A model generated the notes under the pieces. The model saw only the letters and a list, made by a program, of their open reading frames with translations, was not told the DNA's origin and made no database searches. From Stramenopiles sp. TOSAG23-2 (taxonomy: Eukaryota > Sar): a DNA stretch of 26,611 nucleotides. Positions 8,807 through 23,017 of this stretch are shown here, one piece after another. The DNA lies in assembly GCA_900128395.1 (NCBI GenBank), contig LT649430.1, positions 1 to 26,611 on the forward strand, in the 5' to 3' direction. The position numbers and the translations under genes are program-made. Within the stretch, counting starts at the first letter, position 1; the number at the start of each line of letters is the position of its first letter.

Positions 8807-8816
8807 AAAAAAAAAA
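8807..8816 (-). terminator. T10 tract, likely RNA polymerase III terminator
   Basis: Ten consecutive T on the minus strand, beginning 25 nt past the tRNA 3' end. Pol III stops at runs of four or more T. This is the first such run downstream of the tRNA 5' end on that strand. Confidence 0.75.
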
Positions 8817-8840: not shown

Positions 8841-8866
8841 TGCCTCCGGCGGGGCTCGAACCCGCG

Positions 8867-8936
8867 CTTTATTTTGAGAAGGAAATTTAATGTTAATTTC
8901 TTGTCGTTTTCCGATTTTCCTTAAATTTTCACTTAC
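8867..8936 (-). other. tRNA intron 3 (70 nt, spliceosomal type)
   Basis: Begins GTAAGTGAAA and ends AAATAAAG, with TTAAC 25 nt before the 3' end and a short CCTTCTC pyrimidine stretch. It lies in the variable loop between positions 47 and 48. It has no TTTT run. Confidence 0.85.
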
Positions 8937-8952
8937 ACCTTTGGATTATGAG

Positions 8953-9014
8953 CTAATGATATTTACTTGTTAATTGTTGTTCTTCCTACAAATTGTTCGT
9001 ACTTGTTAACTTAC
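8953..9014 (-). other. tRNA intron 2 (62 nt, spliceosomal type)
   Basis: Begins GTAAGTTAAC and ends ATCATTAG, with TTAAC 16 nt before the 3' end. It lies between positions 31 and 32, exactly at the 5' edge of the anticodon loop. It has no TTTT run. Confidence 0.85.
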
Positions 9015-9034
9015 ACCAACGCTCTACCAACTGA

Positions 9035-9109
9035 CTGTATATTTTAATTTAAGGGAGTTTTGTTAGAGAATAATTTTGGGTATCACATTTTTTTGTACAA
9101 TTGACTTAC
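9035..9109 (-). other. tRNA intron 1 (75 nt, spliceosomal type)
   Basis: Begins GTAAGTCAATT and ends ATATACAG, with CTAAC 27 nt before the 3' end. It interrupts the D stem between tRNA positions 11 and 12, so the Pol III A box is broken into TGGC and TCAGTTGG. It contains no TTTT on the transcribed-sense strand. Confidence 0.85.
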
Positions 9110-9118
9110 GCCACGGAG

Positions 9119-9138
9119 ACAGGAGTGAAAACTCCTGT
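9119..9138 (-). other. 5' leader hairpin touching the tRNA 5' end
   Basis: On the minus strand, ACAGGAGT-TTTC-ACTCCTGT is a perfect 8-bp stem whose last two bases are the first two of the tRNA. It is mutually exclusive with the first acceptor pairs, so it could act in 5' maturation or be incidental. Confidence 0.5.
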
Positions 9139-9182
9139 TTCTGATCGCTATTGTTCACTGTTACTAAAATTTGTGAAATTTT

Positions 9183-9197
9183 ACGTATATATAATAA
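9183..9197 (-). promoter_or_regulatory. TATA-like element upstream of the tRNA
   Basis: TTATTATATATACGT on the minus strand lies 60-75 nt upstream of the tRNA 5' end. Because the internal A box is split, an external element could help transcription. TA-rich strings are common here, so this is only a candidate. Confidence 0.2.
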
Positions 9198-12710: not shown

Positions 12711-13653
12711 GAAAGGTAAGGAAATCTATCTTTCGCATAGGCAATTAAAAATGCCTTGGGCAGGTAGGTATGTCGGCCAACCTTGGGCAGGTTATTCGGC
12801 AGGTAGGTATGTCGGCCAACCTTGGGCAGGTTATTCGGCAGGTAGGTATGTCGGCCAACCTTGGGCAGGTTATTCGGCAGGTAGGTATGTCGGCCAACCT
12901 TGGGCAGGTTATTCGGCAGGTAGGTATGTCGGCCAACCTTGGGCAGGTTATTCGGCAGGTAGGTATGTCGGCCAACCTTGGGCAGGTTATTCGGCAGGTA
13001 GGTATGTCGGCCAACCTTGGGCAGGTTATTCGGCAGGTAGGTATGTCGGCCAACCTTGGGCAGGTTATTCGGCAGGTTATTCGCCGGCCAACCTTGGGCA
13101 GGCAGGTATGTTGGCCAACCTTAGGCAGGTTACCTACAAGTTTTGCAGCATCAAATTTATTTTTTGATTTCAATGCCTCATCCATTGCATCACCAAGTTC
13201 TTTTTCCACAGCAGCTGCTTGCTCAGCAATTTTTCGTTTAATAATAGTTTGCGTATGTTTTAATTGTATTAAATTATTACTCAATCCTTTCAACTCTTTT
13301 GTAGATGTTAATACTTCTTTACATTCTTCTAAAAGCGATTTTTTCATGGCATTCCATGCAAGCTCCAGGGTCGAACCTTTTTCACTTTCAGGTAGTATAT
13401 GTCCTTTTGAAATTTCACCTAATCTATATGCATATGCTTCTTTTGCTTCTGCTAATGTATCAATTGCAGATGCAATTACTTTTAACGAGAATTTTCCATC
13501 CCAACTACGTTCCATGCAATCAACATATCCATTTCCATAATTAATTGCTCGGTACCCTTCCTCTGCCGGGATCATTAAGCCAGCCGACATCCAATCCATA
13601 TTATTTGCAGGTACAGTTGTTGCAGGTGTTGATTCTTTTTTTTTTTTCGACAT
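11194..13653 (-). CDS. F-BAR domain protein with proline-rich tail, three exons
   Basis: Join 13653-13138, 12609-12473 and 12214-11194 (516+137+1021 nt) gives one 557-residue frame. Splice sites are GTAGGT...AAAAG and GTTAGT...AAAAG, phases 0 and 2, each intron with TACTAAC. Residues about 25-297 are helical and charged, fitting an F-BAR (FCH plus coiled-coil) membrane-curving domain: GYVDCMERSWDGKF and LAEAKEAYAYRLGEISKG at the start, LKHTQTIIKRKIAE in the middle, and FRHKESMDEILENLQ with LQKMTKMHRNDL at the end. The tail (about 400-540) has repeated PPPR, KPPP and PKKPPP motifs, typical ligands for SH3 or profilin-type partners, and is strongly basic. Such proteins link plasma-membrane curvature to actin and endocytosis. 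No SH3 domain is visible. Exon 2 is too short and frame-shifted to stand alone, but joins both neighbours exactly. Confidence 0.85.
12215..12472 (-). other. F-BAR intron 2 (258 nt), homologous to intron 1
   Basis: Begins GTTAGTACCTACCTGCCC and ends ATTAAAAG, with TACTAAC near 12255. It contains a shorter set of the same GGCCAACCTTGGGCAGGT units (12345-12462) and a 3' part matching intron 1 over about 110 nt. An 18-nt direct repeat (ACAAAAATTAAAAGGTTA) spans both its boundaries. Confidence 0.88.
12610..13137 (-). other. F-BAR intron 1 (528 nt) with 39-bp minisatellite
   Basis: Begins GTAGGTAACC and ends ATTAAAAG before GCTGCGG, with TACTAAC near 12650. Most of it (12759-13131) is a tandem array of eight nearly identical 39-bp units (plus strand GGCAGGTAGGTATGTCGGCC, AACCTTGGGCAGGTTATTC). 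The rest is a GT/TA-rich tail shared with intron 2. Because 39 is a multiple of three, the F-BAR frame stays open through the whole array if the intron is retained, giving a 302-residue product. Confidence 0.85.
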
Positions 13654-21460: not shown

Positions 21461-23017
21461 TTACTCCATGGCCATATTCATACTACCCATATAAATTCCA
21501 AATATCATAATACCAATGATAATAAATATATCTGATATTTCTAATCGCATGATTTTTTCAAATGTACTATATTTACGCATTGGGCATTTTCCTTCTTTTT
21601 CCATTATTACTGTGTTCTTATCTTTCGTTTTTTTCATATTCTTCATTTTGCTTTGATTTACTTTGATACCACCTTTGCCTAATCCTCCAACACCTGGCCA
21701 TAGAACTTTATTTTCATTTAATTTTGGATGTCCATATTTATTTAACTTTTGTAATAATAAACGATTATTACTATCTGTATTATTATCATATTTTGGTATA
21801 TTTTCAACACCTTTGATATCTTCAATATCTTTCGTTTCAATTAAATTATTATTACAATCATCCATATGTTTAACTTCATCCTCATTACTACCTGCTTTTA
21901 CTACTAATTGACCACATGCACTTGCAATATCAGCACCCATTTCTTTTCGAATTGTTGTTGCAACTTTATATTGTTTAAACAAAACACTTTGAAATTTTAA
22001 CACATCTTCCATTTTTGTTGGAAGATATGGTGCATTTACATCTGTATTATTATATGGTATTAAATTTATTGTAACATTTTTACCTTGTAACAATTGCCCT
22101 AATTCATTTGCCACTTTTTCGCTATCATTGACGCCATTTAATAGTACATATTCAACAAGCAATTTACGTTTTGTTTTATTTAAATACAAATCAACCGTAT
22201 CCATTAATTTATGCAATGGAAACCCTTTTGCACTTGGAACAAAACTTTTACGTAATTCTTGAGTAGGTGCATGTAATGATAATGCTAAATTGACATTTGG
22301 CAAATCATTGATGAATTTTTTCATCGGGCCAGGTACACCTACTGTACTGACGGTTACACGATTTGGACTTAATTTAAAACGATGTGGATCAATCATTGCA
22401 TTCACAGCTGCTTTGACATTTTCATAATTATTCATTGGTTCCCCCATCCCCATGAACACAATATTTCGTATTTCAGCAAATTGTCTAGCAAAAATTAATT
22501 GTTCTAGGATTTCTCCACTTGTTAAATGTCCAATCTCACCCATGGTGCCAGTTGCACAAAATGTACATGCCATTTTGCATCCAATCTGAGAGCTTACACA
22601 TAAAGTTGTCCTTTTCTCACCATCTGGGCTACGTGCAGTTACTGCACCATGTCGTATAATTACTGTCTCAATACGCAACCCATCTTGCAATTCAATTAAT
22701 AATTTTGTTGTTGATTGGTCTTTACAAGTAATTGCACTTACTACTTTTGATGTAAACATGGAAAATTGCTTTTCCAATTCTGGTAAAATACGCATTGGAA
22801 AATCAATAATATTATCAATATTTTGTATAGATCCATTTGGTGTTCTCAATAAATATTTATAGATACGTCTTGCATGTAATATTTTCGTATTTTGTGATAA
22901 TAAAAAATTATGTAATGCTGGTGCATCCCATATTGATTTTTTATTTAATAATTTAATACGATGACGACGATTTCCTTTATATTTTCTTGGTGGTGGTTGT
23001 GGTGGTGGTTGTGCCAT
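21461..23017 (-). CDS. RlmN/Cfr-family radical SAM RNA methyltransferase with C-terminal membrane segment
   Basis: A 518-residue protein of the RlmN family, which in bacteria methylates C2 of A2503 in 23S rRNA and an adenosine in some tRNAs. The radical SAM cluster motif is C147-KMA-C151-TF-C154. The two mechanistic cysteines are in place: C140 in TLCVSSQIGC, seven residues before the first cluster Cys, and C368 in GADIASACGQL. MGMGEPMNN (189-197) is the SAM-binding GEP region, and SLHA and IPYNN are other family signatures. Bacterial RlmN is about 370-390 residues, so the catalytic part ends near 375 and about 140 residues are extra: a polar linker, then DIFIIIGIMIFGIYMG near the C-terminus. 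The N-terminus (MAQPPPQPPPRKYKGNRRHR) is Pro/Arg-rich. An organellar or membrane-tethered site is possible but unproven. Confidence 0.92.
   Translation of the reverse strand: MAQPPPQPPPRKYKGNRRHRIKLLNKKSIWDAPALHNFLLSQNTKILHARRIYKYLLRTPNGSIQNIDNIIDFPMRILPELEKQFSMFTSKVVSAITCKDQSTTKLLIELQDGLRIETVIIRHGAVTARSPDGEKRTTLCVSSQIGCKMACTFCATGTMGEIGHLTSGEILEQLIFARQFAEIRNIVFMGMGEPMNNYENVKAAVNAMIDPHRFKLSPNRVTVSTVGVPGPMKKFINDLPNVNLALSLHAPTQELRKSFVPSAKGFPLHKLMDTVDLYLNKTKRKLLVEYVLLNGVNDSEKVANELGQLLQGKNVTINLIPYNNTDVNAPYLPTKMEDVLKFQSVLFKQYKVATTIRKEMGADIASACGQLVVKAGSNEDEVKHMDDCNNNLIETKDIEDIKGVENIPKYDNNTDSNNRLLLQKLNKYGHPKLNENKVLWPGVGGLGKGGIKVNQSKMKNMKKTKDKNTVIMEKEGKCPMRKYSTFEKIMRLEISDIFIIIGIMIFGIYMGSMNMAME

Follow-up and report, generated by a model that had tools for sequence, protein, structure and literature searches.

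A split tRNA-Met gene in Stramenopiles sp. TOSAG23-2 probably interrupted by three spliceosomal introns

Contig LT649430.1 of Stramenopiles sp. TOSAG23-2, analyzed over its full 26,611 nt and referred to here as the window, contains an elongator tRNA-Met gene in four pieces. In our assessment (probability about 0.85) this is a functional nuclear gene with three U2-type spliceosomal introns, and one of at least six such genes in the assembly. Observed directly were the arrangement of exons and introns, the presence of such an arrangement in six genes, the signals these genes have in common, the lack of a bulge-helix-bulge (BHB) at the intron junctions, an upstream element and downstream T runs. 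As usually taught, a protein endonuclease and a ligase act on nuclear tRNA introns. The signals of the introns described here make removal by the spliceosome likely. Every DNA-testable prediction of the spliceosomal interpretation proposed in the initial annotation was borne out; from these signals we infer the splicing event itself and the part of the spliceosome in it.

Structure of the tRNA-Met gene

The minus strand from 9120 to 8841 contains pieces of 11, 20, 16 and 26 nt, with intervening segments of 75, 62 and 70 nt that all begin with GTAAGT and end with AG. When the segments are removed the pieces form a 73-nt elongator tRNA-Met(CAT). Exon 1 (9110..9120, minus strand, as are all parts of the gene) supplies positions 1-11, that is the 5' strand of the acceptor, positions 8-9 and the first half of the 5' strand of the D stem. 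Intron 1 (9035..9109, 75 nt, GTAAGT...CAG) follows at site 11/12, in the A box region, and contains CTAAC, its branch A followed by 28 nt. Exon 2 (9015..9034) holds positions 12-31 and ends at intron 2 (8953..9014, 62 nt, GTAAGT...TAG, site 31/32), where TTAAC is found with 17 nt after the A. Exon 3 (8937..8952, positions 32-47) carries the CAU anticodon. Intron 3 (8867..8936, 70 nt, GTAAGT...AAG) lies at site 47/48 with TTAAC and 26 nt after the A. Exon 4 (8841..8866, positions 48-73) contains the T arm with an unbroken B box region, the 3' strand of the acceptor and discriminator A. This structure is certain. It agrees in coordinates with the intron lengths and sites given initially, none of them at 37/38, and the CTAAC or TTAAC motif reported for each intron is present at the distances listed.

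ARAGORN called the joined 73-mer as tRNA-Met(cat) and made no call on the unspliced stretch, in support of the claim that excision of three GTAAGT...AG segments restores an elongator tRNA-Met. An additional overlapping tRNA-Met(cat) was listed when the bare 73-mer was read as a circle. Even with a threshold of E<=10, Rfam gave no tRNA match in the unprocessed window. The joined tRNA has an acceptor of 7 bp with one U2.G71 wobble, a D stem of 4 bp and a T stem of 5 bp. The anticodon stem has 4/5 standard pairs, the exception being U31.U39, which is presumably also present in other eukaryotic elongator tRNA-Met. The cloverleaf is therefore complete, and the word "flawless" in the initial annotation was slightly overstated in view of U31.U39 and U2.G71.

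Split and intact tRNA genes in the assembly

The assembly contains 17,453,882 bases (17.45 Mb) in 793 contigs, one of which is the window. Scoring 63 of 786 first-look candidates with the Rfam tRNA model gave at least 16 matches, 13 of them above the cut-off. ARAGORN identified 11 of these matches as intact tRNA genes: Thr-AGT, Phe-GAA, Ile-AAT, Arg-TCG, Val-AAC, Arg-CCT, Ser-GCT, Ala-AGC, Pro-AGG and two tRNA-Sec. Four low-scoring matches became complete tRNAs after removal of segments that begin with GTAAGT or GTACGT and end with AG. Thr-CGT (L010) has one intron of 68 nt at 55/56, inside the T loop. Two introns were found in both Arg-TCT (L014; 66 and 80 nt, at 8/9 and 48/49) and Leu-TAA (L015; 77 and 59 nt, at 6/7 and 38/39, with one acceptor mismatch), and a single intron of 77 nt at 20/20a in Leu-CAA (L016). 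ARAGORN assigned the Leu-CAA stretch to tRNA-Val, with a 70-nt intron of canonical type. This reading was rejected, as GT-AG removal yields a tRNA-Leu with the usual long variable arm.

Pattern searches based on tRNA sequence extended the set by one gene. Arg-ACG (L070), with one intron of 68 nt at 42/43, was the only new split tRNA among 41 matches to the T-loop pattern GGTTCAANYCC. The pattern GTNYAGTGGTNAG gave 5 matches and no tRNA, while the 48 matches to AGTTCRANYCT comprised 3 known tRNAs and 45 sites without a new one. Exon-donor pieces scanned against viral contigs gave 0 matches. The assembly thus holds five tRNAs besides tRNA-Met that become visible only after GTAAGT/GTACGT...AG removal, the kind of gene that the initial annotation had proposed searching for.

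With tRNA-Met there are 6 split genes containing 10 introns of 59-80 nt, and they make up 6/17 of the tRNA genes found. The introns lie at 6/7, 8/9, 11/12, 20/20a, 31/32, 38/39, 42/43, 47/48, 48/49 and 55/56. None (0/10) is at 37/38, the nearest being the 38/39 intron of Leu-TAA. All six genes give complete cloverleaves with isotype features that fit their anticodons, apart from the Leu-TAA acceptor mismatch and U31.U39 of tRNA-Met.

An intact copy of any of the six split anticodons was not found in the assembly (63/786 first-look Rfam candidates scored). This holds for the uninterrupted elongator tRNA-Met whose existence the initial annotation had asked about; a DNA search of the assembly with the joined tRNA-Met, a weak test, also gave no match. 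The 11 intact and 6 split genes include no Gly, Lys, Glu, Gln, Asp, Asn, His, Trp, Tyr or initiator tRNA. Because so many isotypes are absent, either the assembly or the search is incomplete for tRNAs. The missing kinds would suit a reading in which the interrupted copies are pseudogenes hit by spliceosomal or introner-like introns, with intact, working genes located in sequence that the assembly lacks. Broken copies do occur, such as a truncated tRNA-Cys (L011) and a partial tandem Arg-ACG (L070). However, 6/6 genes keep their stems and conserved loop bases (one mismatch in Leu-TAA) despite one to three introns in each, the splice signals, branch signals and T run have been kept in every gene and the upstream element in most, and the intact counterparts are those that the search just described did not find. 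We regard the pseudogene reading as improbable, and the split genes as very likely functional.

Controls on the split-tRNA search

A control search was carried out on both strands of 266,959 bases in 110 sequences, including the window. GTA[AC]GT donors with AG acceptors gave 8 matches, all of which were the six genes; Met appeared twice since L031 overlaps the window, and Arg-ACG had two solutions. When 40 of the 89 other permutations of GTAAGT were used as donors, 7 matches were obtained. All were spurious cuts around the intact tRNA-Val (L005), and 0/6 split genes were recovered. Replacing the acceptor AG with GA or AC gave only alternative junctions for Arg-ACG.

Intron ends were also fitted without any motif. 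GT-AG was the single best solution for 3/9 introns (Leu-CAA left out), the others being tied or one slid base off, as in intron 2 of tRNA-Met, where a one-base slide outscored GT-AG (59 vs 55). In 9/9 introns, again leaving out Leu-CAA, only one GT-AG solution was near the top. For Leu-CAA, ends other than GT-AG outscored GT-AG (59 vs 53). When a wider free-end search was made around 11 non-intact T arms, only Leu-CAA and Arg-ACG yielded solutions.

These searches bear on the idea that scattered tRNA-like pieces were joined by a permissive search. Many intron combinations were tried, and fits with free ends yield many near-solutions. Against this, the permuted donors produced only junk cuts around an intact tRNA in the same 266,959 bases, and each true product folds as a full cloverleaf whose isotype features fit its anticodon. 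The permuted-donor control leaves next to no room for chance resemblance, which was rejected. The same control upholds the view that three GTAAGT donors in one tRNA gene are unlikely to have arisen by chance.

Splice signals of tRNA and protein-gene introns

The donors of the ten tRNA introns are GTAAGT (7) or GTACGT (3) and all introns end in AG, a uniformity that is partly the result of selection since the split-tRNA search required GT[AG]NG(T) and AG. A branch motif was not used in selecting the introns. [CT]TAAC, counted at 12-36 nt from the intron end, was present in 10/10, with 13-34 nt after the A. Shuffled introns gave 1.01/10, and the motif occurs in 4% of random 70-mers ending in AG.

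Protein genes provided introns for comparison. A reading-frame test blind to the motif yielded 178 candidate groups. Four of these were protein-gene introns with full GTAAGT, and the majority of the rest were weak and are probably not introns. A motif search added two more. The six introns, which were partly chosen by motif, all have CTAAC 25-34 nt from the end (6/6) and are 74-95 nt long. Homologues of a Rieske oxygenase (L049) and a sulfatase (L081), 69% and 75% identical respectively, align without gaps across the intron junction. Among the proteins compared, the nearest relatives in ENA and JGI data have identities of 69-98%. The Pfam domains of both proteins stop short of spanning the junctions, and an NCBI protein 99% identical to the sulfatase reads into the intron at its end. 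The tRNA introns match the protein-gene introns in branch-like site and length, in agreement with the spliceosomal type to which the initial annotation had assigned them. U6 snRNA is present in uninterrupted form (82.5 bits).

Group I and group II introns do not fit. A length of 59-80 nt is too short for the catalytic core of either group, and Rfam gave no match to them in the window.

Comparison with tRNA endonuclease substrates

The ten junctions were scored for a BHB in the standard register and one alternative. The central helix had 0-3 of 4 pairs and never 4, and introns of the BHB type were rejected on this result (0/10 junctions with a 4-pair central helix). In this respect the tRNA introns differ from tRNA-endonuclease substrates. 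Searches for PF01974 (the endonuclease catalytic domain) and PF01139 (RtcB) gave no match in this incomplete assembly, with prokaryote-only controls and with genes possibly split by introns.

Absence of a BHB does not by itself rule out an endonuclease, given that introns of the Guillardia nucleomorph often lack one (PMC3978253). A tRNA splicing endonuclease of relaxed specificity, together with a ligase, might remove the introns, in which case the GT-AG ends and branch-like sites would be inherited from inserted spliceosomal introns or be coincidental. Precedents come from a red alga and from nucleomorphs, where ectopic and multiple tRNA introns are cut in this way and some nucleomorph introns have no defined BHB (PMC3978253, PMC4090602). 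Conversely, 10/10 introns here are without a BHB, the conserved ends and branch-like site would serve no role in an endonuclease route, and the two Pfam domains were unmatched, with the same limits of assembly, gene structure and controls. An endonuclease route seems unlikely, marginally less so than the pseudogene reading, and splicing by the spliceosome is the reading we favor.

Transcription signals

Introns break the A box region in Met and Leu-CAA and the T loop in Thr-CGT, and such interruptions should harm an internal promoter. An A/T-rich element, ATATATATCAAAAATTNACAATTTTNNATAANATGT, was found upstream of intact and split tRNA genes alike (L001-L010, L012, L014-L016, L070 and the window). 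A 36-nt model of the element was learnt from 10 intact tRNA genes only. Its best 14 matches in the 266,959 bases all precede tRNA genes, 4 of them split genes that were not used in learning. The Leu-CAA element ranks 16. The candidate element of tRNA-Met (9157..9192, minus strand) consists of a TATATATA core and an A/T-rich extension 72-37 nt before the start of the tRNA. At 11.9 bits it is the weakest of the six split genes, a score reached by 2.6% of random 200-nt pieces. Genome-wide, the element pattern occurs at 22 sites, 10 of them at known tRNA genes, compared with 4 sites for the reversed pattern. Two of the other 12 sites were examined and showed no tRNA. A TATATATATGAAAAATGACA stretch similar to the tRNA element lies shortly upstream of the U6 gene.

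Downstream, a run of 5-10 T begins 3-24 nt after the tRNA in 6/6 split genes. In tRNA-Met it is a run of ten T (8807..8816, minus strand), a candidate polymerase III terminator, that starts 24 nt past the 3' end. Within the ten introns (702 nt, 51% A) there are 0 runs of five or more T vs 3.6 expected from the flanks (P 0.029) and 2 runs of four or more T vs 8.3 expected (P 0.014). The upstream element and the pattern of T runs fit an external polymerase III promoter and avoidance of early stops. The element on split and intact genes, together with the T runs downstream, suggests transcription by polymerase III in a form that tolerates breaks in the internal boxes. A similar TATA-dependent scheme has been proposed for the disrupted tRNA genes of Cyanidioschyzon (PMC3978253). 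The leaders of 16 tRNA genes show a weak tendency to form a small hairpin before the 5' end (mean z -1.1, standard error 0.33).

Origin of the introns

An intron family with the 3' end TACGCTACGCTCCACAG was found at 48 sites (25 exact, 23 with one mismatch), and the reversed pattern at 0. Two members, the only ones examined in full, lie in unrelated protein genes (L040 on C526, 2591-2672; L049 on C52, 525-603) and are alike from end to end (z 18.4). By its sequence the family is of an introner-like kind, and it is a possible source of new introns. Four of its sites, on C81, end in CACAA and may not be introns.

All pairs among 16 introns, including those of the tRNAs, were compared (120 pairs). 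No significant likeness was found between tRNA introns and other introns, and the best pair of tRNA introns reached z 3.4 (p 0.015). Membership of the tRNA introns in the repeated TACGCTACGCTCCACAG family was rejected for lack of significant likeness. The near-identical family resembles introner elements, and no tRNA intron is demonstrably a member.

Proposed route of maturation and its meaning

Polymerase III would be recruited by the upstream TATA-type element and would produce a transcript of leader, exons and introns up to the downstream T run. The spliceosome would then read the GTAAGT or GTACGT donor, the CTAAC or TTAAC branch site and the AG, and exons as short as 6-26 nt would be joined via intron definition. 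Ordinary maturation of the tRNA ends would probably follow splicing. With an external TATA-type promoter, introns would be free to settle anywhere in the tRNA body, A and B boxes included. Whether tRNA splicing in this lineage has moved as a whole from endonuclease and ligase to the spliceosome is a more tentative matter, for which we put the odds somewhat below even. A sizeable share of the tRNAs in such a lineage would need spliceosomal removal of one to three introns each, a proposal that we hold with the same reserve.

Spliceosomal introns occur in fungal rRNA and SRP RNA genes. A search of the open-access literature, excluding preprints, found no report of spliceosomal introns in tRNA genes. 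One of the two closest parallels is U6 snRNA, which has an mRNA-type intron in fission yeast (PMC10484740); the other is the set of multiple ectopic tRNA introns of Cyanidioschyzon. The introns of U6 in fission yeast and other fungi are, like the putative ones here, GT-AG spliceosomal introns in a small non-coding RNA. Fungal U6 is itself a part of the spliceosome, whereas here the introns interrupt several tRNA genes, up to three in each, and the organism's own U6 is intact.

Among tRNA systems, the red alga Cyanidioschyzon merolae likewise has nuclear tRNA genes with several introns each at sites other than the canonical one, and an upstream TATA-like sequence and a T run have been proposed to replace its internal promoter (PMC3978253). 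Its introns are BHB-mediated and cut by the endonuclease, in contrast to the GT-AG ends, branch-like site and lack of a BHB found here. Nucleomorphs of Guillardia theta and chlorarachniophytes also have introns in the D and T arms, and many of these have no defined BHB (PMC3978253, PMC4090602). Insertions at non-canonical sites in Guillardia are given as 3-24 nt (PMC4090602), whereas the introns here measure 59-80 nt and carry a complete set of splice signals. The canonical tRNA introns of eukaryotes also reside in nuclear tRNA genes but at 37/38, where 0/10 are found here.

Removal by this route would be without precedent for tRNA; a stricter view may make it a variant of spliceosomal introns in small RNA genes. 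If the spliceosomal reading is true, it would represent a new route of tRNA maturation that ties translation directly to splicing capacity, and the spliceosome would act on several very short structured transcripts with exons of 11-26 nt. Standard tRNA finders would miss such genes, and "incomplete" tRNA sets of protists may hide more of them. Two questions become testable, namely whether polymerase III transcripts routinely enter the spliceosome and whether the tRNA endonuclease is dispensable.

Other features

Several further features were observed. A tandem duplication of 122 bp at L070 (C314, ~1207-1520) comprises the leader, first exon and most of the Arg-ACG intron, and a complete tRNA-Arg(ACG) is reached from the second copy only. 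At L011 (C426, 1501-1605) a tRNA-Cys(GCA) is complete to the T arm and is followed by six T; either this copy is truncated or the 3' part of the gene escaped recognition. The two tRNA-Sec genes (L012/L013, C227) form a tandem pair with 179 bp between them and a separate upstream element before each, and this eukaryote may synthesize selenoproteins.

The window also encodes, at 21461-23017 on the minus strand, a long RlmN-like radical SAM protein with an extra C-terminal part. Its relatives include an ENA protein that is 98% identical and EukProt g11251.t1 (68%). A short tandem repeat array, (GQPWAGYSAGRYV)n in one frame, occupies 12745-13167.
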